From Flavonifractor sp. An10 (lineage in GTDB: Bacteria > Bacillota > Clostridia > Oscillospirales > Oscillospiraceae), in the NCBI RefSeq assembly GCF_002161215.1, contig NZ_NFMB01000002.1, positions 186,001 to 250,000 on the forward strand: DNA of 64,000 nucleotides, read 5' to 3'. A program made the translations under genes and the position numbers. Shown here piece after piece: positions 12,551 through 63,777 of the stretch (position 1 is its first letter; every line of letters starts with the position of its first letter). The notes below the pieces were generated by a model that worked only from the letters and a program-made list of their open reading frames with translations, ran no database searches and was not told the DNA's origin.

Positions 12551-12834
12551 ATTTCTATTGAGAATGTGATTTGACGGACAAGGGCAGGGGAATATAACCT
12601 TGCCCTTGTTTATTCTTATTTAATATGTTATTTGTGACAACTTTAGCAAACAGGGGATGCGGCATTTATTTATGCCTGATGGCAAGGGCTTTATTGATTT
12701 TCCCCCTGTGTTTTATGCTGTTGTTGTTTCGATTACTTTTTGGGGATTGCAAAGTTTTATATATTTTAACATATCACATTACAATTCGGATAATGGTTCA
12801 TCTGTCGCCGTTCTCCTAACTGTACGCCATTGTA
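12551..12834. other. Gene-free stretch with one terminator-like hairpin
   Basis: AT-rich sequence between tRNA-Pro and the IS3-type transposase gene. One hairpin (12578-12586 with 12601-12609, then TTATTCTT) looks like a second terminator. No convincing gene is seen; the sequence may be the left part of the insertion element. Confidence 0.4.
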
Positions 12835-41133: not shown

Positions 41134-41664
41134 GCCAATGCCTCCCTGCCGCGTTGTTTCCTCTATTTTACCCCCAAAAGGACGGCCCATGCAAGCCCGC
41201 CGGAGCGCAGAACAGGGAGTCCGGATCCTCTCCGGACTCCCTGTATCCTGTTCTACGGGCCTGTATTCAGGCGGCCGGAGCTCATGTTATCGTCTCATTC
41301 AAAACGCACCTAATATCTCGCTCATTTTGTCCCTCTCGCCCCTCATTCTGGTCAACAGCCATTTGATCCAATTCATCACGTTTTTCTCGTCTTTTCCTCA
41401 TAAACTCCATCGACCAATCCCCAAAAGTGGGCAAAAAAGAAGGGAGCCTAAGGGTAAAACCTTAGACTCCCGTGCCATTTTCAGCGGGATGTTATGTCTG
41501 TTTTGGACGAGACACTGTCATGGAGTCTAAAGATATTTATCATTATATCATCACCGTCGGTCAGACGCAACCTATTTGATATGCGGGTTATCCAGAACCT
41601 CCCATGATATCTCCGATGCAAAGTGTATATCGTAAGATATCTATATTGCAAAGGAGTATCGTAT
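41134..41664. other. Junction between GC-rich backbone and AT-rich accessory DNA
   Basis: A 531-bp gap without a credible gene. It holds a 13-bp hairpin (41213-41225 with 41231-41243) and a second, GGGAG-CTAAGG.../...CCTTAG-CTCCC (about 41440-41471). Composition changes from GC-rich before about 41.28 kb to AT-rich after. No tRNA or clear attachment repeat is seen. Confidence 0.5.
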
Positions 41665-48530: not shown

Positions 48531-49068
48531 CTCCATCTAAGCAGATGCGAGATTATGCAAGCGGATGTGTTTCGCAGTTAACAGCTGAGCAAAAAGAGGC
48601 TATTCATGATTATACAAAGGGGATTCCTCCTTATTATAGAAATATAAATAGCGTTCTCATGGGCACTCAAAGTAACTATGATCTTGTTAACGAAGAACGA
48701 TGTGAGTTTACATACAACGCTGAAAGAGACAAGAACGCCATGCGATATCACAGTGTGTCGTGGCTGCAGTGCCAGTGTATTAGGCGATTTGGTTCTGGCC
48801 TCTGATGATAATCTTCTTGGTGCGCTCTTCGCAGATAAAGGGTTCGCGAGCATGAGTATGTCTCGAGGATTAGCTTTCAAATAATGACATGCTTCTAGAG
48901 ATTCATCTCCCAGCCGGTAGCTACGCAGCGAACATTGAAACGCTTAGCGCTGCGGGTAGATATGAAAAAGAAGTTTTGATTGATAGAGGTCAGTTATTCC
49001 AGGTTGCTGGTGTGCATAGGGACGAAAATGGCAGAAGAGTTCTTGAGGTCAATGCTATTAGGAGGTAA
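48531..49068 (+). pseudogene. Decayed ADP-ribosyltransferase (VIP2/ART-type) gene
   Basis: Three frames each hold part of one ART fold: SQLTAEQKEAIHDYTKG ... RNINSVLMG (frame of 48467), then VCRGCSASVLGDLVL ... GALFADKGFASMSMSRG (from about 48700), then MLLEIHLPAGSYAANIETLS ... EKEVLIDRGQLFQVAGV ending at TAA 49068. The catalytic EKE (ExE) motif is in the last part. At least two frameshifts separate them. ART domains of this kind are toxins, often from phage or polymorphic-toxin loci. Confidence 0.7.
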
Positions 49069-49069
49069 T

Positions 49070-50176
49070 ATGAGTAACGAACGATTTAACAATAATAAAG
49101 GCGATATAGAGTTCAAGCGATGCCAATGTGAATTTTGCAGATATAATTGCAAGGATGAAAACGGAATTGATAAGAAAACGTGTCCAAAATATCCGGATGG
49201 CAAGCCAGATGAAGTTCTGCAAACAAAAGTAAAGTGTCCCTTCTTGGACTTTCAAGCGATGTTACAGCGAAATGCACAAATCTTTCGAGGGATTCCTGGT
49301 TACAGAAAGTTTGATACTGTTCGTCGTTTACGAGGATTGTCTTCGGAAGAAAAATACTATATTAAAACTAAAGAGCAGCAAGAGTTCTTGCTGAAGGTCA
49401 GCAATATCCCTAACGCTCGAAAGATGGATGAAGAGCGGCTGTGGTTAAACTACCTTGAATCTAATGGAATATTAACAAATCGTGTTTTAGATTACGGTAG
49501 TTTCCATAGGCATCGGAGTGCCTATACGCTATTGTCTTGGATTCCTGGAATGTCTGTATCTGATGTTTTGAATGACGCAAACAACGACGTTTGCCTTCAA
49601 TTAGGGTACAAGGCGGGGACGCTCTTGAGGCAGATTCATAAAATTAAGCCTCCCCAGCGCCTGTTACCGCAAGCGATGTCTCGTGTAATTGATGAATGTA
49701 TTTTTAAGTTTTCCTGTGATGATGTATCCCTTGAGAAGTATCCATCAATGAATGTTTTTTTAGATTACCTAAAAAAACACAAGCATATCGATTTGCACGA
49801 AGAAACATACAGTATATTGCACGGCGATTTTCACACCGGAAATTTGATCTTTTATGACAATCGCATTTGTGCGATTGACTGGATACGTGGCGCATGCGGG
49901 AATCCGATTGACGATTTTGTTCGCAATATTGTAAACGGCTCTGAAAATCCTGCTTTCGCCTCCGCTCAAATTGATGCGTATTTTGACGGAAATGTTCCAG
50001 AATCATTTTGGCTTGAACTGGCTATTCTTACAGCGATACACGAATTAAAGATTACCGAATTTCAATTTCCAGACGCCAAAAATGGAGAAGCATTTGTGAG
50101 TTATCAGCACGGTCTTGTTGTGGACCAATATAATTCAATGCAGTTACTTATACCAAAATATTATTCCCATACATAG
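49070..50176 (+). CDS. APH-type (aminoglycoside phosphotransferase fold) kinase with a Cys-rich N-terminus
   Basis: A 368-residue protein. The kinase core shows LHGDFHTGNLIF (Brenner motif, catalytic Asp, about residue 275) and AIDWIRGACGNPIDDF (metal Asp). The first ~65 residues carry six or more Cys (CQCEFCRYNC ... CPKY ... CPFL), possibly a metal site. APH-fold kinases act on antibiotics, choline, amino sugars or peptides; the substrate here is unknown. ATG 49070 follows SD AGGAGG. First gene of a tight plus-strand operon ending with an MFS exporter. Confidence 0.75.
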   Translation: MSNERFNNNKGDIEFKRCQCEFCRYNCKDENGIDKKTCPKYPDGKPDEVLQTKVKCPFLDFQAMLQRNAQIFRGIPGYRKFDTVRRLRGLSSEEKYYIKTKEQQEFLLKVSNIPNARKMDEERLWLNYLESNGILTNRVLDYGSFHRHRSAYTLLSWIPGMSVSDVLNDANNDVCLQLGYKAGTLLRQIHKIKPPQRLLPQAMSRVIDECIFKFSCDDVSLEKYPSMNVFLDYLKKHKHIDLHEETYSILHGDFHTGNLIFYDNRICAIDWIRGACGNPIDDFVRNIVNGSENPAFASAQIDAYFDGNVPESFWLELAILTAIHELKITEFQFPDAKNGEAFVSYQHGLVVDQYNSMQLLIPKYYSHT

Positions 50177-50189
50177 AGGAGAGAAAATC

Positions 50190-50999
50190 ATGAGTATAGA
50201 AGATGAAATCAGAGCTAAAAAAGAGAAAATGCAAGCAGACATAAGAAAAGCTGAAGTAGAAAAGAGAGAAGCAGAGCGTGTTCAAGCTGCATTTAATAGT
50301 GCTGGAATGAATCACTCCTCTCCGGTATTGATTGTACCAGCAACAGAGTTGCAGGCAGTTATCTCAGAGGCGATTCCTAGTATGCGATTCAATTCTCCCA
50401 AAATTGTTCGCACCATTACTATGACAGATGGGCAACGCACCTTTGTACGTTTCGCAAGGACGGGGCAAAATAGTGAGCGTGCGGACATGTATTCGTTTGA
50501 TGTAACCTTATATTCTAGCGGTTCAGGCAAGGGCTCGTATACTTATAACATGTGGGTGTTTAAAAACGGAGCAATTTCTTTTAACAAGAGTGGCACCTCA
50601 AACATGACCTGGGCTGAAATAAAATCAACTGGAATAACTGCAGCAACTGTTCGTTCTAAAATTATTGAGGCAATTGCACTGCAATCTATTAAAAGAGAGT
50701 CTTCGTATTCGCAATCTTCTTCAAAATCTTCCAGCTCTGGTGGTTGCTATATCGCAACAGCCGTATATGGTTCTTATGATTGCCCTGAGGTGTGTGTGCT
50801 GCGTCGATATAGAGATAATAGATTGCAGAAAAATACTCTCGGAAGATTGTTTGTCAAAGTGTATTACGCAATCAGTCCTACTTTGGTGAAATGGTTTGGC
50901 AAAAAAGCATGGTTTACCTCTTTGTGGCGTGGTTATTTGGATAATAAGGTATCTTCATTAAAGAAAAGTGGATATAGCGATGAAAAATATAACGACTAA
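50190..50999 (+). CDS. CFI-box-CTERM domain protein
   Basis: A 269-residue protein: N-terminal coiled coil (EIRAKKEKMQADIRKAEVEK), a middle domain of unknown type, a Ser linker (SSYSQSSSKSSSSGG) and the C-terminal CFI-box domain (CYIATAVYGSYDCPEVCVLR ... GRLFVKVYYAISPTLVKWFG). The CFI-box domain occurs at the ends of many unrelated proteins; its role is unclear. SD GAGGAG before ATG 50190. It overlaps the QueC-like gene by 20 bases. Confidence 0.65.
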   Translation: MSIEDEIRAKKEKMQADIRKAEVEKREAERVQAAFNSAGMNHSSPVLIVPATELQAVISEAIPSMRFNSPKIVRTITMTDGQRTFVRFARTGQNSERADMYSFDVTLYSSGSGKGSYTYNMWVFKNGAISFNKSGTSNMTWAEIKSTGITAATVRSKIIEAIALQSIKRESSYSQSSSKSSSSGGCYIATAVYGSYDCPEVCVLRRYRDNRLQKNTLGRLFVKVYYAISPTLVKWFGKKAWFTSLWRGYLDNKVSSLKKSGYSDEKYND

Positions 51000-52026
51000 A
51001 CTCCGTTCTTCCGGTTTGTTATTAAAAGCCCCTATTTATAATGCTGAAAATATCCATGCTAAAAACCGTAAGAATGCCATAGTGATGTTCTCTGGTGGGA
51101 TGGATTCTACTGTGTCATTATGGTGGGCTCTTGATAACTATGAAAATGTTGAAATCCTTATAGTGGACTATAATCAGCCTCACAGTATCGAGATTGACAA
51201 AGCTATTAAGATTGCTAAGATGGTCGGCGCAAAATATCAAAAGATTAAAGTTGATTTTCCAACTTCGTTTTGGGGCATTGAGAATCACCTGACCAGAGGG
51301 CAGGCTTGTCTTATGACCTCTTTGGCAGCGCTCAATATAAGTCATGATGGTGCTGATATAGTAATGGGAATCCTGTCTACAGATAACTATGGTGATTGCG
51401 ACAGAGATTTTTTAGACCACATAGCAAGTGTATTATTTCATCCAAATGATTGGTCAGATATTGGTATTGCAACGCCGTTGCGCGCAGTAAAGAATAAATC
51501 AGATGTGATTGCATTAGGTTATCAATATGGAGCTCCATTAAGCCTTAGTTGGACTTGCCGGGATCCGATAAATGATAAACCGTGCCATAATTGTATGCAA
51601 TGTAGACAGCGGGACGAAGCTTTGGTTTCTTTTTATCGAGAATATGGCATATCAAAGGACCAATATGATAAGTGGAGTCTTGTTTGTGCTTCCCCCTATC
51701 ACCCGTATTTTCGGGATGTTTCGTATGATATCCATATTGTTGTAGAGGCGTTTCTACAAGCTGGTGGCTTCAAACACGGCAAAAGGTGTTACGTATACAC
51801 TTCCCCCGATGGAAAACAGCGTGTTTCTACACATATTTCGTCAATTGAATCACTTGAAGAGGCAGGTACGGGGTCATTTATGGATTTAATTCACATACAT
51901 GGGTATCTGCATAATAATTATCGGTGGGAGTTGTGCGTTTCCCCAAATGGGGCTATTGCAGCAACTGATGTATTACCCAATGTGAGTGTTATTGAAGAAG
52001 AGCTTATCAAGAAAGCTGAGTTTTAA
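50980..52026 (+). CDS. QueC-like PP-loop enzyme with a C-terminal extension
   Basis: A 348-residue protein. The PP-loop ATP-pyrophosphatase motif is FSGGMDSTVSLWWAL (about residues 36-50); QueC landmarks follow: VDYNQPH, GDCDRDF, TPL...K, SWTCRDP...KPCHNCMQCRQRDEA (zinc Cys set). QueC makes 7-cyano-7-deazaguanine from carboxydeazaguanine, but the usual VPxRN-type segment reads LTRGQA here and ~110 extra C-terminal residues of unknown fold follow, so another amidation/nitrile-type substrate is possible. It is coupled to its neighbours on both sides. Confidence 0.75.
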   Translation: MKNITTKLRSSGLLLKAPIYNAENIHAKNRKNAIVMFSGGMDSTVSLWWALDNYENVEILIVDYNQPHSIEIDKAIKIAKMVGAKYQKIKVDFPTSFWGIENHLTRGQACLMTSLAALNISHDGADIVMGILSTDNYGDCDRDFLDHIASVLFHPNDWSDIGIATPLRAVKNKSDVIALGYQYGAPLSLSWTCRDPINDKPCHNCMQCRQRDEALVSFYREYGISKDQYDKWSLVCASPYHPYFRDVSYDIHIVVEAFLQAGGFKHGKRCYVYTSPDGKQRVSTHISSIESLEEAGTGSFMDLIHIHGYLHNNYRWELCVSPNGAIAATDVLPNVSVIEEELIKKAEF

Positions 52027-52027
52027 T

Positions 52028-52549
52028 GTGGAAACAGTAAATAAAATTGTAGTAATAGCAGGTCATTCTGGTTCAGGTAAGAGCACCCTAACAAAAAGGT
52101 TGTCCGAGTCTTTTTTGTGTGAATCATTAAATTTTAGCTATATAGGACAAGCCTTAGCTGCCGAAGAACGAGGTAGTGTTGTTTTTGATGGGCTTAACGA
52201 TTATATATATCAATGTATTTTGTCAACTGCTCGAAAAAACCTGCTTACATTTGTTGATGGTCTTGCCTCAGATGATATTATTCAACGCCTCTCTGCCGAA
52301 GGTTTTTCCATATTGGTTCTTTTTCTGGATACACCATACGATATGCGTATAAAACGTATGATGAACAGAGAAAATTGCTCTTTGTTTGAAACGGAAAATA
52401 TTGAACGTGCAAAAGCCTATGGGAAGGAAAAATCCGGATTATCTAATGTAATTGCAATGGCGGATCATAGGATTGACGGCACTAAAGCGATTGATGAAAT
52501 ACTGGCGGATGCGATATTATACCTAAAGGAGAAATTGCGACTTGAGTAG
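52028..52549 (+). CDS. P-loop nucleotide/small-molecule kinase
   Basis: A 173-residue kinase with Walker A AGHSGSGKSTLTKRL (about residues 10-24), FVDGLAS (DG) and an R-rich lid (DMRIKRMMNRE). It resembles cytidylate/dephospho-CoA-like kinases. The start is GTG 52028, one base after the QueC-like stop. Substrate unknown. Confidence 0.65.
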   Translation: METVNKIVVIAGHSGSGKSTLTKRLSESFLCESLNFSYIGQALAAEERGSVVFDGLNDYIYQCILSTARKNLLTFVDGLASDDIIQRLSAEGFSILVLFLDTPYDMRIKRMMNRENCSLFETENIERAKAYGKEKSGLSNVIAMADHRIDGTKAIDEILADAILYLKEKLRLE

Positions 52550-53717
52550 TAGTATTACAGACAAAAAATCGAACTTATTATGGAGCAAGTCGTTTATAAT
52601 TATTGCGCTAGTAAATGCACTGACGTTCCTAGGATTTAATATGGCTACGGCTGGGTTTCCGGTATACTTGTCTTCTCTTGATATGGACGAATCTGTAGTT
52701 GGCTTTTCTACCTCGCTTGCTGCCGTCGGTTCTCTTTTCATGCGCCCCTTTGCCGGATACCTGGGCGCAAAGATTTCATGTAAAAGATTCTCTTTTATGG
52801 GATTAGCATTAATGGCTGTACCATGTGCAATTTCTATGGTAGCTGTTAATACCAAGGTTCTTCTTCTTATGCGCTTTTTGCAAGGTATTGGTTGGGGGAT
52901 ATCCTCCACCTGTTGCGCAACTATTATCGCTCAATGTGTTCCGTCAACACGGTTGTCAGAGGGAGTTGGATATGCGGGTGCTATTTCATCAGTTACAACA
53001 GCCTTTGCTTCCAGCCTCGCAATATTCATCCTCCAAAGCATGAATGTTATCTCCATGATAATCTCTATTGGATTGGTTATTGCGCTTGCAATATTACTTT
53101 TGTTGTTGATGAGGCCCACCGAAATAGCGACTTCAAATCAGGTGCGTAAAAATCCTATCGTGATCTGTCCTCCTAATGCGATAGTCCCTGCGGTAATGAT
53201 TTTTTTTATTACTTTTGGATATTCTCCAATAATTACTTTCGTGACACGCTTTGCATCAGAGAGCGGATTCGCAGGTGTATCTTTATTTTTTTTGATTTAT
53301 GCCATTGCAACAATAGTGATAAGACCATTAACGGGTATTTTCGCAGATAAATATGGGTGTGTTTTGCCCACAATGTTTGCTATGACCACATCTGTGTTAA
53401 GCCTTGTTTTTTTGCTTGTTGCCCATAATAGTATGATATTCTATTTTGCAGGAGCACTTTCTGGCATTAGTACTGGGATGGGAATGAATGCTTTGCAAAC
53501 GATGGCGTTAAAAGGTGCAACTACTCAGACCCGTGCTGCCACTATGTCTACATTTCTTTTTGGTTTTGATTTTGGCATGGCTATTGGCGCTGGTATATCT
53601 GGATTACTCGTTAAAACATATACATATAATGCAATGTATGGAATTGTTGCAATTGCCCCATGCGTGGGACTATTATTCTTCATTTTGATTTCCGCGGTAA
53701 AAAGAAAAAGGGCGTGA
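52542..53717 (+). CDS. MFS exporter
   Basis: A 391-residue transporter with 12 hydrophobic segments and the MFS motif A-like loop GYLGAKISCKRF and PLTGIFADKYG between helices 8 and 9. The start is TTG 52542 with SD AAAGGAG, overlapping the kinase gene by 8 bases. As the last gene of the operon it is a good candidate to export the pathway product or give resistance. Confidence 0.85.
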   Translation: MSSSITDKKSNLLWSKSFIIIALVNALTFLGFNMATAGFPVYLSSLDMDESVVGFSTSLAAVGSLFMRPFAGYLGAKISCKRFSFMGLALMAVPCAISMVAVNTKVLLLMRFLQGIGWGISSTCCATIIAQCVPSTRLSEGVGYAGAISSVTTAFASSLAIFILQSMNVISMIISIGLVIALAILLLLLMRPTEIATSNQVRKNPIVICPPNAIVPAVMIFFITFGYSPIITFVTRFASESGFAGVSLFFLIYAIATIVIRPLTGIFADKYGCVLPTMFAMTTSVLSLVFLLVAHNSMIFYFAGALSGISTGMGMNALQTMALKGATTQTRAATMSTFLFGFDFGMAIGAGISGLLVKTYTYNAMYGIVAIAPCVGLLFFILISAVKRKRA

Positions 53718-54356: not shown

Positions 54357-54476
54357 GAAGGGATACCGCTTTCTCAATAATTATGAATCTCTTTAATCAC
54401 ATCTAAACATCTGTACTGAAAATTGGCAGAGTTAGGTTCTATCTCGGCAATATACTCACTTGTACCCAAATGGAGT

Positions 54477-55040
54477 TTACACAGAGTTTGGCATTGACCC
54501 AGAAGAATCTTCCATTTTTTGCTTTAGCGTATTAACCCTTTTATAGATATTAAAATAACAGCACTCAGAGCAATCTTCCTGTACGGTTTTTTCATAAGAC
54601 ATCCCACACTTTTTAATTACACCAACAGCACGTTTATTCCGTACATCGCATGCCGCGATAATCTTTTCCAGTTTTAGTGTATTAAAGCCATATCGAAATA
54701 ATTCATCAAGTGCCTCTCGCATCAGTCCACTGCCCCAATATTCTTTTCCAATCCCAAAACACACCTCACCAGACAGGCTTTGTTTATTAAAATATAGTGC
54801 GATGATGCCAATGACTTCGTGATTTGAGTTGTTCTCAATTGCCCAGCGCGCTTCGCCGCCCCTCTTCTGTCGGATTTCCCAATATTCGATTAAGTATCTA
54901 ATTTTTGCAAGAGTATAAACCGGAGCGGCGTAGTATTTATGATTACTCTCATCCGCTGCATAATTCCGGTGGAACGATTCAGCATCATTCAAACTGAATG
55001 GGCGTATAGTCAATCTTTTTGTTGTAAAAGTCGGTATCAT
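54477..55040 (-). CDS. GNAT-family N-acetyltransferase (RimJ-like)
   Basis: A 187-residue acetyltransferase opening TKRLTIRPFSLNDAESFHRN, with CFGIGKEYWGSGLMREALDE (acetyl-CoA loop, Gln/Arg-x2-G-x-G/A variant) and CDVRNKRAVGVIKKCGM. RimJ/RimL-like enzymes acetylate N-termini or antibiotics. It starts one base after the peptidase gene and is the last gene of the minus-strand cluster, so it could acetylate the cluster's peptide or confer self-protection. Confidence 0.83.
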   Translation of the reverse strand: MIPTFTTKRLTIRPFSLNDAESFHRNYAADESNHKYYAAPVYTLAKIRYLIEYWEIRQKRGGEARWAIENNSNHEVIGIIALYFNKQSLSGEVCFGIGKEYWGSGLMREALDELFRYGFNTLKLEKIIAACDVRNKRAVGVIKKCGMSYEKTVQEDCSECCYFNIYKRVNTLKQKMEDSSGSMPNSV

Positions 55041-55041
55041 C

Positions 55042-55836
55042 TTATCCTTCGGTCTGCTTCAAAAATGTTTCGATATGATTGTAGCACTGAAAATAATAAT
55101 AGACAAATGTGACAATCTCCAATCCAAGCTGGATCAAAAATTCATTGCTCACTTCCAACATAGTTGATTGATTCAGTTCTTTTTCCAAAATATTCTGCAT
55201 CTTACTCATTACTGCAATAAGTTTTTTTGTGGCTCCTGTCTCGTCCTTTATTCCCACAGCTTCAGCAACTTGAATAGAAGAAGTGGCCGTTATCTTGCAT
55301 TTAATAAAGAAAAAGCCAAGTCGCTCCGGATAAAATGAGAGATTGTACAACAGCGATTTAAACTCTCTCTCTATGGAACTTTGGCTCCAATTTTCTTCTA
55401 AAAGAAAAATCTTCGTTACCAAGTATTCAGCTGTATATTCCTTCCACATTCGTTCACCAATTTGAAATAGAAATCGCATCACCTCATCATTTGGTGGCAT
55501 ATTCTTAGACATGCTGTCACAATATGCGTGTGCTAATTCGTGCAGAACGATTCGTAGGGATTCATCCGATGGCTCTAATAGCGATTCCCTTATGATAATG
55601 ATAGCTTTTTTTGATGTTTTAAGCAACTCCGCTCTGAGTTGAACTGCATACTGTTCTAGTTGGACAGTGGTAGATTTTACCTCGAGCCGCAAAATCCTTG
55701 CTGCATTTTGGTAGACTGAACTGTATGCGCCTTCTGGCGCTTCCCATAACATAATATCATTCAATTGATATGGAAAATCGGGGTACTCCTTGACGAACAG
55801 CCTATAGGCTTCTTCTAGCAGTGTGTTTTTACACAT
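55042..55836 (-). CDS. HExxH zinc metallopeptidase-like protein
   Basis: A 264-residue protein with a zinc-peptidase motif LRIVLHELAHAYCDS (HExxH, about residues 98-102) and a downstream Glu in YTAEYLV (HExxH...E arrangement), then a helical C-terminal half. No signal peptide is seen, so it acts inside the cell. Lying right after the small peptide gene, it is a candidate to cut a leader from the modified peptide. Confidence 0.7.
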   Translation of the reverse strand: MCKNTLLEEAYRLFVKEYPDFPYQLNDIMLWEAPEGAYSSVYQNAARILRLEVKSTTVQLEQYAVQLRAELLKTSKKAIIIIRESLLEPSDESLRIVLHELAHAYCDSMSKNMPPNDEVMRFLFQIGERMWKEYTAEYLVTKIFLLEENWSQSSIEREFKSLLYNLSFYPERLGFFFIKCKITATSSIQVAEAVGIKDETGATKKLIAVMSKMQNILEKELNQSTMLEVSNEFLIQLGLEIVTFVYYYFQCYNHIETFLKQTEG

Positions 55837-55909
55837 ATTACATTCCCCACCTCCGGCAACAAGAAAATATGCTGTTGCAAAATATATCTTGAAAATTAAG
55901 GTAAAGAAA

Positions 55910-55951
55910 AAGTTGCTGAGAATTCCCGAAGCGACGGGTTCTCAACAACTT
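55910..55951 (-). terminator. Terminator between the small peptide gene and the peptidase gene
   Basis: AAGTTGCTGAGAATTCCCG (55910-55928) pairs with 55935-55951; on the minus strand it is followed by TTTTTCTTT. The plus side also has TTTTTT, so it works both ways. As a partial terminator it would keep peptide mRNA more abundant than the downstream enzymes. Confidence 0.8.
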
Positions 55952-56016
55952 TTTTCGTGTTAAATTTCCTGCTTGGGTCTGAAAACTGCATTTTGCAACT
56001 GGCCCTTTCGAGAGGA

Positions 56017-56193
56017 TTAGAACATAATACCGTACCGCTCAGAATACTTATCGTGCCTCTCGTAATAAGCTTCGTGAAGGCCCTCTTCTGTTATTACGGT
56101 GTTGATATGCATCAGACGATCGAATACCTTTCCCGCCTTGGCATCTTCGGGAATGTCAAACTTGCTGCTGTCGAGTTTAATATCCTGACTCAT
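56017..56193 (-). CDS. Small Tyr-rich peptide, candidate RiPP precursor
   Basis: A 58-residue peptide starting at ATG 56193 with SD AAGGGGG eight bases upstream. The N-terminal part is acidic/basic and leader-like (KFDIPEDAKAGKVFDRL at 11-27); the C-terminal part, HEAYYERHDKYSERYGIMF, holds all four Tyr and a repeated Y-x2-R/K spacing. It has its own consensus promoter and is followed by a terminator, and it sits among YcaO, three radical SAM and peptidase genes. It has no Cys, so Tyr, His, Lys, Asp/Glu or Arg side chains or backbone amides would be the modified sites. I know no named family for it. Confidence 0.7.
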   Translation of the reverse strand: MSQDIKLDSSKFDIPEDAKAGKVFDRLMHINTVITEEGLHEAYYERHDKYSERYGIMF

Positions 56194-56245
56194 TTTTATA
56201 CCCCCTTAGTCATTTCACAGCGAGATTAAAAATATCTACATTTTG

Positions 56246-56274
56246 ATTATAAGCGATGAATCCCTGATTGTCAA
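56246..56274 (-). promoter_or_regulatory. Consensus promoter of the small peptide gene
   Basis: On the minus strand TTGACA (56269-56274), 17-base spacer, TATAAT (56246-56251): a perfect vegetative promoter in otherwise weakly promoted DNA. The start of transcription would be about 45 bases before the peptide ATG. Confidence 0.88.
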
Positions 56275-56353
56275 TGCAAAAAACGCCATCTGTGACGCTT
56301 TGTTGCTATTATAGTAACCGGCAAGGCTGTCCAGTGACATAATGAAGAAGTCA

Positions 56354-57151
56354 TCATATACTTCTGATAACAACTTCATAATCACACCCGATGTAATCCA
56401 GTATTTGTTTAGATAACACCTCCATCTGCTTATATATCTTGACCATGCCATTCACGCCAGATAGATTATTCTTTTTGCAATATGGCGAGAGACTCATCCA
56501 TTTAGTGAAGCCAGCACCCCAAGAATTTGGTTCCATACCACGCTCTTGAATCGTAATCGTGATTAACTTCTCGATGTCATCAGGCAAGAGTAAATACGTT
56601 CTGCAAGACAATGGGCGAATGATACTGGCTAATGTATTGAAATAGGTCAGGATCTCCTCCACACTGATATCGTAAAATCCAAGAATATCCAGCAGCTGGT
56701 TATGCAAAATTGCTCCTTCTGCAATATAGACCCTGTGAGTTAATCCATAAGTTTGTACAAATGATTCCCAAAGGAGAAAATGATGTTCCTTGTAGATATC
56801 AAATGACACTCTTCCGTCTCCAATATCATACTTGCACAACTGAGGGAGGACTGTTTGAAGCTCTAATGTTTTGTACATCACCTTCGTATATGCCACTATT
56901 ACATTTTCATAGAGCAAATACGAATTAGCCTTCATCGACTGTGCTGTTTTAATGGAAACCTTCATCAATAGTTCTTCAAATACCCGTTGTGGGATAATCG
57001 CCTGCCTAAACAAATCTACCGGTTGACTGGTCTCCTCCTTATAATATACAACATCATCGTTTGCCTCTAATAATTGCTTTTGTAAAGAATACGCAAAAGT
57101 TGATTTCCCTGAGCCTGGGAGCCCTTCCACAAAGCACAGTCTGGCAGGCAT
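56354..57151 (-). CDS. P-loop kinase-like protein B of the peptide cluster
   Basis: A 265-residue protein with Walker A GLPGSGKSTFA (about residues 9-19), GDGRVSFDIYKEHHFLLW in the middle and YIAEGAILHNQLLDILGFYD later. It is a paralogue of the next gene upstream; both resemble thymidylate-kinase-like P-loop enzymes only in the fold motif. ATG 57151 has SD AGGAGG and starts 2 bases after its paralogue's stop. Substrate unknown; phosphorylation of the peptide or of a small precursor is possible. Confidence 0.7.
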   Translation of the reverse strand: MPARLCFVEGLPGSGKSTFAYSLQKQLLEANDDVVYYKEETSQPVDLFRQAIIPQRVFEELLMKVSIKTAQSMKANSYLLYENVIVAYTKVMYKTLELQTVLPQLCKYDIGDGRVSFDIYKEHHFLLWESFVQTYGLTHRVYIAEGAILHNQLLDILGFYDISVEEILTYFNTLASIIRPLSCRTYLLLPDDIEKLITITIQERGMEPNSWGAGFTKWMSLSPYCKKNNLSGVNGMVKIYKQMEVLSKQILDYIGCDYEVVIRSI

Positions 57152-57153
57152 AA

Positions 57154-57987
57154 TCACACCTCCTTTGCATCAAGTTTACGAAAGATAATGCTCTTTTTTA
57201 TTTTGACTTGATCAAGAATCTTTTGTTCTATGCGTTTTCTATCCATACAGAATTGTACTGCACCAGAAAAGCCAGACATCCCATGCTTTTTTCCATAATT
57301 ACAAGTCGTTACTAGCTTAATAAATCCATCAATCCAGCGATATCCTTGATCATTCCTCATCTTTGCAGTTTGTAAAAGCAACTGTTCTATCTGGTCTGTC
57401 GATACATAAACCAACTCTGTCGATATTTCGCATATAGTTTCTAGTAGAGCATTCACAAATTGAAGAATGGTGCTATCATCTGCTTCATAATACCCCAGCA
57501 GTTCTGTAATAGGGTGCTGCAACAGTGCGCCTTCAAATAGGTACACAGTGTTATCTGAAATCGTTTTAGCAAAGGTTTTCCATCTGCTGCGGGTTATTTC
57601 TTTGTATCGTTCATAGCCTGCCCTTCCATCACACAATTCGTGGGCAAGTGCATATGAAGTGAGATTCTTATCCCGCAGATGATACTTAGACAAAAACTCA
57701 AGCCAATTCACATAATAATAGTTGCCTTCAATGGATGAGAATTGTCTCACCTGATCTTCAATCGTACTCTTAAACTCAGAGTGAAGTGAGATAATCATAT
57801 GAAGAAATGCCGTGAATTCTTCTTCCGAAAAAATGGCCAGTCGGCAAATATCGAGTGGGCAGGGTTTCTCAGACCGCATCACAATATGCACATTCGGGTA
57901 AGTATGTCGTACTTCCTCCGCCTTTATTTTTGCAAGCGTTGATTTTCCAGAACCGTGAATACCCTCAAAAAAGAATACTTTATTCAT
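57154..57987 (-). CDS. P-loop kinase-like protein A of the peptide cluster
   Basis: A 277-residue protein with Walker A GIHGSGKSTLA (about residues 8-18), CDGRAGYERYKEITRSRWKT in the middle and YLFEGALLQHPITELLGYYE later, each matching a block in its neighbour. The start is ATG 57987, two bases after the YcaO stop (a TTG six bases upstream is possible). The duplication suggests two related steps or a heterodimer. Confidence 0.7.
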   Translation of the reverse strand: MNKVFFFEGIHGSGKSTLAKIKAEEVRHTYPNVHIVMRSEKPCPLDICRLAIFSEEEFTAFLHMIISLHSEFKSTIEDQVRQFSSIEGNYYYVNWLEFLSKYHLRDKNLTSYALAHELCDGRAGYERYKEITRSRWKTFAKTISDNTVYLFEGALLQHPITELLGYYEADDSTILQFVNALLETICEISTELVYVSTDQIEQLLLQTAKMRNDQGYRWIDGFIKLVTTCNYGKKHGMSGFSGAVQFCMDRKRIEQKILDQVKIKKSIIFRKLDAKEV

Positions 57988-57989
57988 AA

Positions 57990-59759
57990 TCAAACATATC
58001 CGAAACTTGAAAGTAAATTCGATATGCGGTTTTGATCAATCGCCGTTCTTTTTGAAGCATCCTTAATTTTTTGATATAATTTGTCTCTAAATAACCCTGC
58101 TTTTTTAGTGTTTTCATCACGATTTTTCAGCAAACCAGAATTTTGACAATGCTCCTGAAGCAGAGCAAATGCATTGCCTTTTTCAATTTGCTTTAGCCAA
58201 GTTGCAGCTTTGTCCCCATAAAATACCCTAAGCAAAGCAACTATTTCATTCAGAGCCACCCCGGATAAGGTCATTTCTATATATCGTTTTAGGAAGGTAG
58301 CACAGTCAATCCTAGTATCTTTAAGTACTAACAAAGCTTTCTCAGGCTCACAAATATCAAACAGCAAGGAAGCATGTAAGAAATCAAAGATATCACGATC
58401 CCAGTTGTGTAGTAGCATTCTCAGCAGAAATGCATCCTTACTAAAAGCACATCGGCAGGCGTCTCGCTTTTTATCCAAAGGAAACTCGTTAGACAAGTAC
58501 TCAATAAAATGATTTGCGATAACAGTCTCCTCGGCCAACCTGTTGTCAAAAATGATGTGCGACAATGATAGAAATGGGATATACACCTTATAAACCGGGA
58601 AATTTAAGATGCTGTTGTCACGAATAAAAACATCACAGCCATTATCTTTGAGAAGGCGCAATTGATGTATTACACCGATTCTATTATTATATGTGTCAAA
58701 AATCTGCCACGGAACAAATTCCCAAGATGCTTTATCAAGAAACACACTATTCGGGACGCTTCCAATATCATCTCGTAACAGAGAAACCCAGTTGCTCAAG
58801 CATGTTGAATCTTCGTCAGCATGAGCAATCCAATCTGTCATATCTGCTCGGTCTATCAAACAAGAGACACATTCATGATCCTGAAACAACTCGGTCAGGC
58901 ATCTCTCTAAAGCGATTTCAAAGCATGGATGTGCTCCAAAATTAGTAAGGTAACGTTGTGTCTGGTTATCAATAACCAGAATACAGATAACAGAAAAACC
59001 TTTTCCCAAAGAAGCATCCTTTACAATAATGTTGAATCGTCCTTGAGCTTCAATCTGCCTTATGACCTCGTACAATTCTGGGCACCGTTTACGAACATAT
59101 TCCTGCGGAATTGTTGGAGGTGTCAAGTTGTTGAATACAATTTTGTATTTAACATATCGTTCAATTGCCTCGTCCAGCGCATGCCCTATGGCTTCCTCCG
59201 GTGTATTGCCACTTCCTCCGCCGTTGGAACCACACATTTTTGATAGAATGGCATCTGGGAGCAGTTCGGTTTTTCCAGATGAAATGTTATAGTACGGTAC
59301 AAATGGGGTTTGATCACTTTGAAGGAGTTGCTTCCAAATCTCTATGATTTCTGCTTTTTCAACTCTGTCGGATCCGCAACAGTTCTGCATATCCCGAAAC
59401 ACTATTGGGGAAACGTCTTCAATCGCTTCAATGGGTAATAGAATCTCATCATAATAGCGGAGAAAACCTCCGTATGCTTTCGCATGCTCTGAAGTTTTGC
59501 TGATATCAAACGCAAAATGATTACACAAGTGCTCCATAGACTCTCCAAATGCACTTGCAAGGCAAAAAGATTCAGTAGTTCCTTTTCCAGCAACATTCCA
59601 CTGCCCGTCTACATCATATAAATATGCAGAATAAACGCTATCTACATGCTTTTCAATTGTGTATTCCATATTCAATTGTAATAAGGTATAACAAGCTTTT
59701 ATTGTTTTGACTGTCTGCAATGGTTCGGCATCTTTATGCTTACTATACAGAATTATCAC
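57990..59759 (-). CDS. YcaO-domain protein (E. coli YcaO-like)
   Basis: A 589-residue YcaO enzyme. The N-terminus carries GKGTTESFCLASAFGESMEH, matching the E. coli YcaO opening (GKGxxxxxxLASALGE-x2-E), and the ATP-binding region is GSNGGGSGNTPEEAIGHALDEAIERY (first residues of S-G-x2-G-x4-EA-x3-A-x2-E-x2-ER). About 250 residues follow; the C-terminus (NLLSSFGYV) lacks the PxPxP end of azoline-forming YcaOs. YcaO enzymes activate peptide backbone amides with ATP to form azolines, thioamides or amidines; no E1-like or TfuA partner is seen nearby. Start GTG 59759 is uncertain. Confidence 0.85.
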   Translation of the reverse strand: MIILYSKHKDAEPLQTVKTIKACYTLLQLNMEYTIEKHVDSVYSAYLYDVDGQWNVAGKGTTESFCLASAFGESMEHLCNHFAFDISKTSEHAKAYGGFLRYYDEILLPIEAIEDVSPIVFRDMQNCCGSDRVEKAEIIEIWKQLLQSDQTPFVPYYNISSGKTELLPDAILSKMCGSNGGGSGNTPEEAIGHALDEAIERYVKYKIVFNNLTPPTIPQEYVRKRCPELYEVIRQIEAQGRFNIIVKDASLGKGFSVICILVIDNQTQRYLTNFGAHPCFEIALERCLTELFQDHECVSCLIDRADMTDWIAHADEDSTCLSNWVSLLRDDIGSVPNSVFLDKASWEFVPWQIFDTYNNRIGVIHQLRLLKDNGCDVFIRDNSILNFPVYKVYIPFLSLSHIIFDNRLAEETVIANHFIEYLSNEFPLDKKRDACRCAFSKDAFLLRMLLHNWDRDIFDFLHASLLFDICEPEKALLVLKDTRIDCATFLKRYIEMTLSGVALNEIVALLRVFYGDKAATWLKQIEKGNAFALLQEHCQNSGLLKNRDENTKKAGLFRDKLYQKIKDASKRTAIDQNRISNLLSSFGYV

Positions 59760-59773
59760 ACCCTTCTATCGAC

Positions 59774-61639
59774 TTATGATTCTGATACGTAGACTCTTTT
59801 AGGGTACAAAAGTAACTCATTCACTTTATCAAGGTCGATCATAATTGGTTTCTCTTCCAACACGGCCTCCTCACCCACAGCAATGCGGTCAAAGAAACTG
59901 ACAAAATCATATCTGAATTCTTCTTGGCTATTTATAGTATCCTCCCTATAAATTGACCGGAACACGTATTCTTGGAAGCGTAAAAGATCAGCCTCACACG
60001 GCGACCGGTCATCCAGATACTGAATGAGAAACGGTCGGAGCTCATAATATAGCGTATCTATATTTTCTATTACTCGCAAAAAAGTTGCTTCTTCTGGCGG
60101 AACCCGAACTCCATCGTAGTATTCTATGGCAGGGTTGTCAATCTGATTTCCGATAGATATTTCGGTATACCACATTTTCAAATCCGAATATACTTGAAAC
60201 GCTTTTTGTCCCATCATCCATGTGTATAAGTGATTATAGAATTCCTTATAGTCCACCTTGCTCTTTTGGTGCAGATATGAGGCTACAAAAAGAAGAATAC
60301 CAAATGAGTGAAATCCTTTGACAATAGACGTAAACATCCTACAGTTTACCCACGCTTCTCTTGGCATTGTTGACGTCTCAACCACAATATCCGCAAACTC
60401 TTGGATTAACCTCAGATTGTAATCGGGTCTGCAGTAATACACCTTCAATGGCATCTTTACCGTCTTGATTCCATATTTATCTGCAGTTGTCGGAATGCCA
60501 ATTTCTGAATTCACAAGTAAAGCAAAGTCATATACATTAATATAGCGATATTGGCCATCGGCAATCAGTTCGCATATTCCTGCAGTAAATGTGTCATAAG
60601 ATTCCCCCGGAAGCCCTAAAATAAGTTCCGAATATGTAGGAATGTTTTCTTTGTTATATTGAGCAATTAACTTTTTGAAATGTGCTACAGGAAGATTGCG
60701 CCGACCAATCAGTTCTAATGTTTTCGGATTTAGCGATTGGAAAGAGATTGTTACGCCGGCAAGAACACCGCACACGTTTAGGATTCTTGAAATCTCCAAA
60801 ACTCTTTCATCGCTCTGTTTACTAAAAGAAACAGAAAACTTGTATGGGAAACCATACCTTCTTCTCGTTTCTGCGATTTTCTTCGCGATAGTTAGATCTC
60901 TTGAGAACATGCCGAAGTTGGAATCTGCGCCGTTGCAGACCACGATTTGATGTTGGCCCATCCATTCTATTTCAGCAAGTATTCGGTCGAGATCCATCAT
61001 CCTGAGACGGGATTGGTTGAGTCCCCAGTCACAGTAGGCACAGTGAAATGGGCATCCACGGTTAGTTTCTATGGTCGCGCTGTAACGGGCATCTGGGTCA
61101 TCAAACATTTTGTCAAACACTCCGGTCAGATATGGTGACGGATAGTCCTCAACAATGCAGTCAGAATGATAGTTATATGAGATCTTATCATCCAAGCGAT
61201 AGGAAATGTTATTCACACACTCTCTGTCCAAACAACCTATCTGATATAAAAGTAATTCTTGAAATGGGATTTCTCCCTCCCCGTGGATTAAGTAATCCAC
61301 ATACGGGAGTTCTTGGAGCAACTTGCTTTGGCCAATTGGTATGCTGTGTCCACCGAAAATGATAACGCATTCAGGATAAGCTTCCTTGATTTGTTTTGCT
61401 AATTGCTTACTATACTCAAAATTCCAGATGTAACAGGAAAACGCAAACACATCCGGCTTCTCAAGGATACAGAGATAACGTTCAGGATCCAATTTTTCTA
61501 CGAACAGGCCACACAACCGGTAGTTTGCTCTAATCACATCATCCTGAAATGCATATGCGTACAGTATCCCGATTGAATACGGAAGAGAGATGATACCGTC
61601 CGGCTTATCGCACGCCTGCATCATATACAAATTTTTCAT
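59774..61639 (-). CDS. B12-binding radical SAM enzyme
   Basis: A 621-residue enzyme. The N-terminal ~170 residues form a cobalamin-binding Rossmann-type domain (DVFAFSCYIWNFEYSKQLAK, IIFGGHSIPIG, VDYLIHGEGE). The radical SAM core has the CxxxCxxC cluster motif in NRGCPFHCAYCDWG (about residue 200) and ELILGLPGESYDTF. Such enzymes often methylate unactivated carbons of peptides. The start ATG 61639 comes 2 bases after the upstream stop, with GGGAG as SD. Part of the peptide-modification cluster. Confidence 0.88.
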   Translation of the reverse strand: MKNLYMMQACDKPDGIISLPYSIGILYAYAFQDDVIRANYRLCGLFVEKLDPERYLCILEKPDVFAFSCYIWNFEYSKQLAKQIKEAYPECVIIFGGHSIPIGQSKLLQELPYVDYLIHGEGEIPFQELLLYQIGCLDRECVNNISYRLDDKISYNYHSDCIVEDYPSPYLTGVFDKMFDDPDARYSATIETNRGCPFHCAYCDWGLNQSRLRMMDLDRILAEIEWMGQHQIVVCNGADSNFGMFSRDLTIAKKIAETRRRYGFPYKFSVSFSKQSDERVLEISRILNVCGVLAGVTISFQSLNPKTLELIGRRNLPVAHFKKLIAQYNKENIPTYSELILGLPGESYDTFTAGICELIADGQYRYINVYDFALLVNSEIGIPTTADKYGIKTVKMPLKVYYCRPDYNLRLIQEFADIVVETSTMPREAWVNCRMFTSIVKGFHSFGILLFVASYLHQKSKVDYKEFYNHLYTWMMGQKAFQVYSDLKMWYTEISIGNQIDNPAIEYYDGVRVPPEEATFLRVIENIDTLYYELRPFLIQYLDDRSPCEADLLRFQEYVFRSIYREDTINSQEEFRYDFVSFFDRIAVGEEAVLEEKPIMIDLDKVNELLLYPKRVYVSES

Positions 61640-61641
61640 GA

Positions 61642-62640
61642 CTACACTCCCAGTGTCAATGCGCTCAAATAGTCGTTTGCCTGCTGTTGACATAAATGCC
61701 TAATCACTGCGTCTTTCAGTGAACCCTTCATCCTAATCACTGTCCCCGTTGAGCTGTAATCTACAGCCGTTTCTGAGAACCGGCGAAACTCCAACAGGCT
61801 GTCAAATCGTTTGTTCTTTCCGTGAGCAGCAAAACCAAATGTCTTCCCCGGAATGCAAAAGACCGATACATACGGTGACACATGCGGGTTATAGCAATAA
61901 CTCGAACCGTCCCACTTAAGATCGTGTATGCATCTGTCAAAACATGGAATTTTGATACCGCAATGCTCCGAATCCGTTGGACGGTAAAGATCAAACAGCA
62001 TAGAAAGAAATGTCTGATATGTTTGTTCTGAGATACCGCCCTGCATACCAAGAACAGGAAAGCACCTATTGACGGAAAAGTCCATGCCCAAACAGGAAAA
62101 GAAGGTAAAAATATCTTTTGCCCGGCTGGACGACAATTCTGTCACAGTAGCAAGCGCAGACACATCGACACGGTTATTACGGAGGAGGTCAATTGCACGC
62201 ATCACCATACTATATGTACCAAATCCGCCTGCGTTTTTCCGATATTCGTCGTGAAGACTCTTCGGACCATCCAAACTGACGACAATCCCAACATCGTATT
62301 GATGAAACAACTCGGCTGTTCTTTGTGTAATCAATGTGCCGTTGGTCTGGATTTGTATCGCAGGATTGCCATTTTTGCGGATCAGTTCAAACAGTTTTTC
62401 AAGATTATCCGGCGCAATCAGTAGTGGTTCTCCACCGTGCAGTATGAACTGCACTGACCGTCTGTTCCTTCTTGCAAGTTCGGATAGGCAAGAAATATAC
62501 TCTTCACACGCATCGAGATTTTCCGCAAAAGCGTTGTTAACTACAATCTTGGAGGTCCTAGTGCGGTATGTATCTGAATGTTCGTAACAATACCGACAGG
62601 AAAGGTTGCATTCAAACGTAGAAATAATAACTCCTATCAT
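61642..62640 (-). CDS. Radical SAM enzyme with reduced SPASM-like domain
   Basis: A 332-residue radical SAM protein with FECNLSCRYCYEH (CxxxCxxC near the N-terminus), FILHGGEPLLI and VSLDGPKSLHDEYR, all typical of the anSME/SPASM group. The C-terminal third has only a few Cys (CFDRCIHD, SYCYNP, VFCIPG) and no full 7-Cys SPASM pattern, unlike its neighbour. ATG 62640 is preferred (SD AAGGAAAG); TTG 62649 overlaps the upstream stop. Confidence 0.85.
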   Translation of the reverse strand: MIGVIISTFECNLSCRYCYEHSDTYRTRTSKIVVNNAFAENLDACEEYISCLSELARRNRRSVQFILHGGEPLLIAPDNLEKLFELIRKNGNPAIQIQTNGTLITQRTAELFHQYDVGIVVSLDGPKSLHDEYRKNAGGFGTYSMVMRAIDLLRNNRVDVSALATVTELSSSRAKDIFTFFSCLGMDFSVNRCFPVLGMQGGISEQTYQTFLSMLFDLYRPTDSEHCGIKIPCFDRCIHDLKWDGSSYCYNPHVSPYVSVFCIPGKTFGFAAHGKNKRFDSLLEFRRFSETAVDYSSTGTVIRMKGSLKDAVIRHLCQQQANDYLSALTLGV

Positions 62641-62645
62641 TGGGA

Positions 62646-63755
62646 TCAACTTTCCTTGTAAAATGATTTGTAATAATCATAAATATAATGGACAATATCC
62701 TTTTGGCAGGCACAAGTGTTCGGCCTGGAGAAGATAGTGTGATTAATTGCTTCTGCAACATATGGGCATCCGCCATTACAGTACAATTGGATATCACAAT
62801 CCTTACATTCGGTCTGGAACAACTGATCGCAGCGGCTACCAAACGCTTTATCTCCAAGGGCGATATTCAGGTTATCGGTCAGGATATTCCCAATCCTATT
62901 CTCACTATCCATGCAATAATGTAGGCACCGGAAAAAGTCTCCGTTTGGTTTAATTGCAACTGTTGTACGACTGCAATCTCTGATAAACGAACAGACTTCC
63001 ATATATATTTCACTCTTAATACACATGGCGCTGATGATACGCTCGAAGCATGTAATGGAAATATTACTTTCTTTGTCGTTAATCCAGAGATTGAACATCT
63101 CTCTCGCAAATTTAATGTATGCTTTTTCGTCTAGTGGAGTATAGGATTTTGGAAGACTCGGATCTGTAAAGCACGGATTGAATGAAAAATCGAGATTGTT
63201 TTCCTTGAAGAAATTGTAGAAATCTTCAGGAGATTGAATAGTAACGTCTGTAACAGTGGCCAATGCACCGACCGAAACTCCCGCCTCCTTCATCTTCATG
63301 ATGTTCCGATAGACCTGATCGAATGATCCGTCACCTGCCGCATTAATCCGATAAGCATCATGCATATATTTGGGACCATCGATACTGGTGCCAATCTGGA
63401 TGTTGTACTTCAAGAACAGTTCAATAAAAGTATCGTCCACCAGCGAGGAGTTTGTTTGCATTCCAATCGTAGTATTCGGGTAACTTTTAATGATCTCACA
63501 CCCCTTTTGGAGCAAATCATGTCCAATCAACAGCGGTTCCCCACCATGGAATGTAATATCGGTTTCTTTCCGTCCGAGGGACTTGTTAATTGCAATGAGT
63601 TCTTCAATGAACTTCCTAAAATAGCGATCCAGAAAAGTTGCAAATGCCTCGCGTATCTCATTGATTGGTATCATCTTTTCGCAGTGCATTGTTTCTTCAA
63701 AGCAATACTTACACCTTAGGTTACATTCGGGTGTACATAAAAGTAATCCATTCAT
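62646..63755 (-). CDS. Radical SAM/SPASM peptide-modifying enzyme
   Basis: A 369-residue enzyme with CTPECNLRCKYCFEE (CxxxCxxC), ITFHGGEPLLIG and TSIDGPKYMHDAYR in the core, and a complete SPASM domain at the end (AIKPNGDFFRCLHYC ... CKDCDIQLYCNGGCPY ... CAC), which holds two auxiliary Fe-S clusters. SPASM enzymes make thioether, C-C or C-O links on peptides or oxidise residues. ATG 63755 has SD GAGGGAG. First complete gene of the minus-strand cluster in the window. Confidence 0.9.
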   Translation of the reverse strand: MNGLLLCTPECNLRCKYCFEETMHCEKMIPINEIREAFATFLDRYFRKFIEELIAINKSLGRKETDITFHGGEPLLIGHDLLQKGCEIIKSYPNTTIGMQTNSSLVDDTFIELFLKYNIQIGTSIDGPKYMHDAYRINAAGDGSFDQVYRNIMKMKEAGVSVGALATVTDVTIQSPEDFYNFFKENNLDFSFNPCFTDPSLPKSYTPLDEKAYIKFAREMFNLWINDKESNISITCFERIISAMCIKSEIYMEVCSFIRDCSRTTVAIKPNGDFFRCLHYCMDSENRIGNILTDNLNIALGDKAFGSRCDQLFQTECKDCDIQLYCNGGCPYVAEAINHTIFSRPNTCACQKDIVHYIYDYYKSFYKES

Positions 63756-63777
63756 ATGTTTCTCCCTCAATTATCAC

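Follow-up and report, generated by a model that had tools for sequence, protein, structure and literature searches.

A candidate RiPP-type pathway with a YcaO protein and several radical SAM enzymes on an island of Flavonifractor sp. An10

Closest described systems and layout of the operon

Gene clusters for ribosomally synthesized and post-translationally modified peptides (RiPPs) that combine a YcaO protein with radical S-adenosylmethionine (SAM) enzymes are already known (PMC10352776, PMC11002830). In Bacteroides thetaiotaomicron, the itf cluster (ItfA, B, D, E, F) has a YcaO protein and a SPASM-type radical SAM enzyme that act on one short peptide, according to PMC10352776. We analyzed a stretch of 64,000 nucleotides of Flavonifractor sp. 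An10, a bacterium of gut type (contig NZ_NFMB01000002.1, positions 186,001 to 250,000; hereafter the window), near the end of which an operon carries the same pair of enzymes together with a candidate precursor ending in I-x-F; the likeness to itf is one of layout only. The C39 peptidase/ATP-binding cassette (ABC) transporter and the TonB-type genes of itf had no match among the operon proteins scanned, and the operon carries in addition a cobalamin (B12)-dependent radical SAM enzyme, two more radical SAM proteins, a U32 protein and kinases. In bottromycin, thioamitides and linear azole-containing peptides the YcaO protein acts on the peptide, as we propose for the window YcaO, and bottromycin also has B12-dependent radical SAM methylases. 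Among the matches listed for the operon there was neither the E1-like or ocin-ThiF partner and dehydrogenase of azole peptides nor the TfuA that is paired with YcaO in thioamitides. The original prediction, made from the letters of this DNA alone, had set the cluster apart from these two classes.

We favour, with fair confidence, the reading that the operon encodes a RiPP-type pathway, and its product is probably a ribosomal peptide that carries many modifications and belongs to no kind described so far. Two observations carry this reading: the codon use and promoter of a gene for a 58-amino-acid (aa) peptide, and the kinship of the YcaO protein with YcaO proteins linked to radical SAM enzymes, one of them with Nif11-like peptides. 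Searches of the open-licence literature brought up no described YcaO/radical SAM cluster in which a TokK-type B12 enzyme stands together with a U32/UbiU-like protein and a pair of P-loop kinases. The genes are as follows; families were assigned with Pfam and NCBIfam, start codons were checked through their ribosome-binding sites, and positions past 64000 were converted from those of a stretch termed L003 by adding 63000.

54477..55040, minus strand: GNAT acetyltransferase, last gene of the operon (PF13302, 94 bits)
55042..55836, minus strand: putative metallopeptidase with a HELAH motif (HExxH at residue 99; SprT-like 18 bits, cut-off 25.6)
56017..56193, minus strand: 58-aa peptide ending in YGIMF, candidate precursor (codon score; AAGGGGG before the ATG)
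56246..56274, minus strand: sigma-70 consensus promoter TTGACA-17-TATAAT upstream of the 58-aa peptide gene (12/12 bases)
56354..57157, likely start 57151, minus strand: P-loop kinase-like protein B, PRK06761-like (NF005250 128 bits, cut-off 270)
57154..57993, minus strand: P-loop kinase-like protein A, PRK06761-like (NF005250 160 bits, cut-off 270)
57990..59759, minus strand: YcaO, E. coli YcaO-like (PF02624 148 bits; PDB 4q84, E 1e-31)
59774..61693, likely start 61639, minus strand: cobalamin-dependent radical SAM protein of TokK/KedN5 type (PF02310 and PF04055)
61642..62649, minus strand: radical SAM protein without SPASM cysteines (PF04055; motif scan)
62646..63770, likely start 63755, minus strand: radical SAM/SPASM protein, sulfatase-maturase-like (TIGR03942 197 bits, cut-off 349)
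63869..~64849 (in the window to 64000; longest frame starts at 65023), minus strand: U32/UbiU-like protein (PF01136 104 bits)
64863-65705 (L003:1863-2705), beyond the window: Cys-rich protein of 280 aa (no family match)
65816-66871 (L003:2816-3871), likely start 66844, beyond the window: third radical SAM protein (PF04055 53 bits; C-terminal Cys cluster)

The nine open reading frames (ORFs) between 54477 and 63770 lie on the minus strand and overlap or nearly adjoin their neighbours, except around the 58-aa ORF, which is flanked by gaps of 180 and 160 bases. The set is more than a chance assembly because it consists of long frames with family matches and of a 58-aa ORF with the top codon score. 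The original prediction had described nine mostly tightly spaced genes on one strand, among them a GNAT, a YcaO and a B12 radical SAM enzyme, and in all this the family matches agree with it. Its other labels fared less evenly. The metallopeptidase has the HELAH motif and a SprT-like score under the cut-off; the two P-loop kinases are P-loop paralogues (26% identity) of the PRK06761 model, both with scores below its cut-off of 270; and of the two enzymes assigned to the SPASM group one (62646-63770) carries the motifs C-x10-G-x4-C and CxxCx5CxxxC, which a motif scan did not find in the other (61642-62649). The two are paralogues as well, being 37% identical over 246 aligned positions. Finally, the cluster had been drawn as ending at 63755, and this had to be revised, as the operon runs on past the window end with at least three more genes (the U32/UbiU-like protein, the Cys-rich protein of no known family and the third radical SAM protein).

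The 58-aa peptide and the kin of the YcaO protein

To rank small ORFs, a codon score was trained on eleven operon genes and applied to ORFs of 45-90 aa within 54400-66900. The 58-aa ORF ranked first of 43 with a score of 0.158 (next, 0.103), which exceeds the scores of all 11 training genes. An exact TTGACA-17-TATAAT sequence begins 81 bases 5' of its ATG, on the same strand and within the 160-base gap. When the 38.4-kb island that holds the operon was resampled 100 times with a Markov model, exact sites of this kind occurred 0.04 times on average, against one found in the island; three exact consensus promoters, including this one, were present in the 120 kb examined, and none was found on the neighbouring stretch outside the site. 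Combined, these results make the 58-aa ORF look like a real, separately promoted gene, and a short gene of this kind amid modifying enzymes has the look of a RiPP precursor, which falls short of proof. The peptide ends in Tyr-Gly-Ile-Met-Phe and has a tyrosine-rich C-terminal part, HEAYYERHDKYSERYGIMF. The likeness to itf weakly points to an amidine at Met57-Phe58 and a link between Tyr54 and Ile56 as predicted sites. A C-terminal Phe was also considered as a general mark of YcaO precursors and rejected, as it was present in 4 of 28 GG (double-glycine)-leader peptides compared to 39 of 680 long ORFs.

The YcaO protein keeps the invariant, ATP-site-type columns of a five-row YcaO alignment, columns that we take to be the ATP site. 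It is rare: in the order it was found in its own genome and 3 others of 394 genomes, and in a phylum sample of 398 genomes in its own genome plus 1 weak match. When the five-row alignment was run against a species-genome collection (84,980 genomes per its description), 67 loci were recovered with best identities of 30-35%, and when the 67 loci were compared by BLAST with 19 proteins of the region, none proved to have an equal gene set. In plasmids, 23 records were matched, all below 60% identity (best ~30%) and E. coli YcaO-like where annotated. In viral contigs the alignment matched two distant loci, and scans with single proteins gave no match.

Since the YcaO protein resembles that of E. 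coli and relatives of the U32 protein act on tRNA or quinones, the enzymes might modify a ribosomal protein or tRNA, as do E. coli YcaO/RimO and the U32 protein TrhP, or quinones in the manner of UbiU. We regard this as very improbable: the score against the S12-accessory YcaO equivalog NF040716 is 184.6 bits, far below its cut-off of 700, and both the rarity of the YcaO protein in the order and the location of the operon on a mobile island (see below) weigh against such a function.

The RiPP reading draws its second support from the YcaO tree. The tree was made quickly, and the branches of L038, L078 and L100 are long in it. Its 75 rows are the window YcaO, 70 YcaO frames found at the 67 loci and 4 taken from other genomes; rows shorter than 380 aa were excluded and the others trimmed to 430 residues. 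The sister of the window YcaO is the YcaO of Butyrivibrio sp. Su6 (L038; Shimodaira-Hasegawa-like approximate likelihood ratio test (SH-aLRT) support 99; 30% identity over 570 alignment positions), and the two cluster with three further loci (L051, L078, L100; SH-aLRT 91). Radical SAM matches were present in 4/4 of these other loci compared to 13/67 overall (hypergeometric p ~0.0009, by hand), both counts being lower bounds since loci were labelled by BLAST matches to the radical SAM proteins of the window and many loci are short. By sequence, the window YcaO thus falls in a radical SAM-associated group.

The Butyrivibrio locus, which is uncharacterized, is a RiPP-like cluster. It carries two small peptides, of which one reaches 22.8 bits with a Nif11 leader model (cut-off 32.3) and the other matches nothing, three radical SAM proteins, a Dph6-like PP-loop protein, the YcaO and an ApyD-like B12 radical SAM protein (320 of 750 bits), besides a HlyD-like protein and ABC transporters, both named from their translations. 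It thus shares with the window operon the nearest YcaO, three radical SAM proteins, one B12 radical SAM protein and one PP-loop protein. It differs by its Nif11-like peptide, its ABC transporters and a B12 radical SAM protein that is ApyD-like rather than KedN5-like, and no U32 or kinase match was obtained there by BLAST. The Dph6-like protein was considered as a counterpart of the QueC-like protein of the window and dropped, BLAST giving no sequence link. In L051, a metagenome-assembled genome (MAG) of Bacteroidales, the YcaO is accompanied by a radical SAM protein, a subtilase, and carrier-like and B12-domain matches that both lie just under their cut-offs. Two similar peptides ending in DDILF (12596-12733 and 13367-13591) sit there between the YcaO and the radical SAM gene. 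Relatives of the L051 and L038 YcaO proteins were sought in 393 and 299 further genomes, of which 6 and 4 were matched (those two included), and by eye the seven stretches around them held no copy of the window gene set.

Other loci of the scan carry paired YcaO genes with Nif11-type GG leaders. In a Clostridiaceae MAG (L085:11898-17207) twelve peptides with Nif11-type GG leaders adjoin one YcaO, and an 8-kb contig of a Paceibacterota MAG (L104) seems to hold the C-terminal end of a YcaO, a B12 radical SAM gene, a row of five radical SAM-like genes (three checked against Pfam) and the start of a second YcaO. An HExxH protein of a further locus (L043) was rejected as a relative of the window peptidase, the motif being all they share.

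Radical SAM enzymes, the U32 protein and competing pathways

The alignment of the B12 radical SAM protein to TokK extends over residues 37-601 (E 2.7e-90), and against the KedN5-family model NF033712, with its cut-off of 700 bits, it scores 238 bits over model positions 15-400. It is alike to the methylases TokK, KedN5 and CysS; no carbapenem or non-ribosomal peptide synthetase (NRPS) genes were matched in the window operon. One of its best plasmid relatives (33% identity over 92%) lies on the megaplasmid of Streptomyces cattleyicolor, a species that makes thienamycin, in a record without annotation at that place. Of the others, one sits in a Streptomyces cluster that includes adenylation domains and one in a sugar region of Azospirillum. 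For matches within the same order, the 8 stretches inspected looked housekeeping-like by eye, and BLAST placed no other cluster gene there. A role in phage defence (PADLOC candidate PDC-M51A, 6e-27) was not adopted, most other matches being weak or generic; a third P-loop kinase of the window (51986-52549) weakly matches PDC-M51B (1e-5).

The relatives of the B12 enzyme open the way to a non-ribosomal small-molecule pathway, in which this enzyme would methylate a scaffold derived from an amino acid or nucleotide, a nearby QueC-like protein and the kinases would act on that small molecule too, and the 58-aa peptide would be a regulator or accessory. Such a pathway is a serious rival, if an unlikely one. 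It is favoured by the TokK/KedN5 type of the enzyme and its non-RiPP relatives, by the QueC-like, APH-like, kinase and major facilitator superfamily (MFS) genes close to the operon, and by the lack of a RiPP recognition element (RRE) among the matches listed. Against it, no carrier protein and no adenylation, polyketide synthase (PKS)/NRPS or coenzyme A (CoA)-ligase domain appeared among the matches listed for the scanned proteins, and the YcaO belongs to the radical SAM-linked group. SPASM proteins, moreover, mostly act on peptides or proteins, and one is encoded here. For the B12 radical SAM protein, the three other radical SAM proteins and a 160-aa ATPase, the NCBIfam matches listed are the best 25 families.

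The small peptide gene with its own promoter, standing beside a B12 enzyme of small-molecule type, would also suit a pathway in which the peptide is a scaffold: its C-terminus would receive amino acids, or have them rebuilt there, and these would later be cut away as small molecules, the kinases and the GNAT acting on what is released. A precedent of the PEARL/ammosamide type is reported in PMC12715798. No PEARL (lanthipeptide-dehydratase-like) match was present in the operon among the matches listed; we take this second serious rival to be rather improbable, more so than the non-ribosomal pathway.

The U32 protein belongs to its family with 104 bits for PF01136 (cut-off 22.4) and, judged by alignment, it is a homologue of UbiU: the protein of 63869-64849 aligns with E. 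coli UbiU at a z of 18.5. According to the passages of PMC6747719 that deal with them, UbiU and UbiV are oxygen-independent hydroxylases and the iron-sulfur cysteines of UbiU are C169, C176, C193 and C232. Three of these four are aligned in the window protein; the fourth is unaligned, and two cysteines lie about ten residues further on. UbiU is paired with UbiV, and the upstream neighbour of the U32 protein is by sequence not UbiV-like: the Cys-rich protein, whose cysteine spacing had hinted at UbiV, gave a z of -0.9 by direct alignment with a short motif recognized by eye only, and the homology was rejected as unproven.

Returning to the RiPP reading, several points weigh against it. Firstly, the candidate precursor matches no Pfam or NCBIfam family and no NCBIfam precursor model, has no relative in its own genome, where it is single-copy, and in a motif scan had neither a GG leader nor a Cys; promoter-like sites are generally common in the region (44 found, 28.8 expected), and the candidate peptides of L100, L151 and L153 do not end in Phe. 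Secondly, no RRE/PqqD, TfuA, E1-like or dehydrogenase partner was present among the Pfam and NCBIfam matches listed. Thirdly, neither the genome samples nor the YcaO-locus scan yielded the cluster a second time, and the Cys-rich protein was found, in 291 genomes of the class, in its own genome plus one weak match. Lastly, the solved structures nearest to the B12 enzyme are TokK and CysS and its nearest NCBIfam model, among the matches listed, is KedN5; its plasmid relatives keep small-molecule rather than RiPP company. Of all the points, the type and relatives of this enzyme weigh most heavily against a plain RiPP. The original prediction is supported in part: the promoted precursor-like gene and the kin of the YcaO speak for the pathway that it named, and the type of the B12 enzyme and the lack of an RRE among the matches listed speak against it.

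The more specific proposal of a new RiPP class on a mobile island, in which several radical SAM enzymes put cross-links into the 58-aa peptide, YcaO changes its C-terminal backbone, the TokK-type enzyme (an enzyme type of carbapenem pathways, here shifted to a peptide) methylates it and the U32 protein hydroxylates it without oxygen, is made tentatively and is more doubtful than the RiPP reading as such. For the RiPP reading that we favour, the gene content, the motifs, the coding-like small gene with its promoter and the kinship of the YcaO are observed, and from these we infer the substrate, all of the chemistry and the order of the steps. In this reading the 58-aa peptide would be made from its own strong promoter, and on its C-terminal part, which is rich in tyrosine, the SPASM and other radical SAM enzymes would form bonds of the C-C or C-heteroatom kind. 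YcaO would activate a backbone amide with ATP to give an amidine, a thioamide or a ring, the B12 radical SAM enzyme would add a methyl to an unactivated carbon, and an oxygen-independent hydroxylation may be the part of the UbiU-like protein. The leader would be cleaved off by the HELAH protein, a putative precursor protease by its motif; the product would be modified or protected by the P-loop kinases and the GNAT, and its export may fall to a convergently encoded MFS protein. Were the product a peptide, methylation chemistry of small molecules and oxygen-free hydroxylation would be joined to ribosomal peptides, and with one promoted 58-aa candidate the reading is directly testable.

The island and its other genes

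A perfect 238-bp direct repeat brackets an island of ~38.7 kb that contains the operon, at 41283-41520 (plus strand) and 79950-80187, the right copy being beyond the window (contig positions 227283-227520 and 265950-266187); the genome holds the repeat at these two places only. In a genome of the same genus (G019, stretch L119) the island flanks are ~120 bp apart, with 90% and 91% identity, and the island is absent; a gene named nrdR-like from its translation lies at the right flank there. In four other relatives the left gene is kept and the right flank was not met within the stretch taken. The GC content is ~0.38-0.44 in the operon stretch, 0.49-0.60 in the transposition genes of the right end and mostly 0.6-0.7 in the surrounding chromosome. 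These right-end genes (L003:9234-15512, window 72234-78512) comprise TniQ- and TniB-matching genes, a Mu-type transposase and a serine resolvase. As the island is bracketed by repeats, bears transposition genes and is absent in G019, the operon was probably acquired horizontally and the pathway is probably mobile cargo. Inverted terminal repeats of a transposon were looked for at the island and not found, and kinase A and the Cys-rich protein had no match in plasmids. Beside the transposase start, a 20-base motif is repeated at a 22-base spacing.

Convergent to the operon lies a further group of genes:

48980..53717, plus strand: convergent neighbours, comprising APH-like, CFI-box, QueC-like, P-loop kinase and MFS transporter genes

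These genes may be part of the pathway or independent of it. The APH-like protein has a Cys-rich N-terminus and the QueC-like protein an extra C-terminal part. An Rfam scan of 20 kb (L027) gave no match, and terminator-like sites were at chance level (7, with 7.3 expected). A 357-aa protein at L003:5260-6333 (window 68260-69333), without a Pfam match, has a stretch of 67 residues like Gram-positive PolC (61 bits). A 73-bp direct repeat (85%) is present at both operon ends, at 54385-54457 and 67246-67318, its right copy lying inside an ORF of 157 aa.

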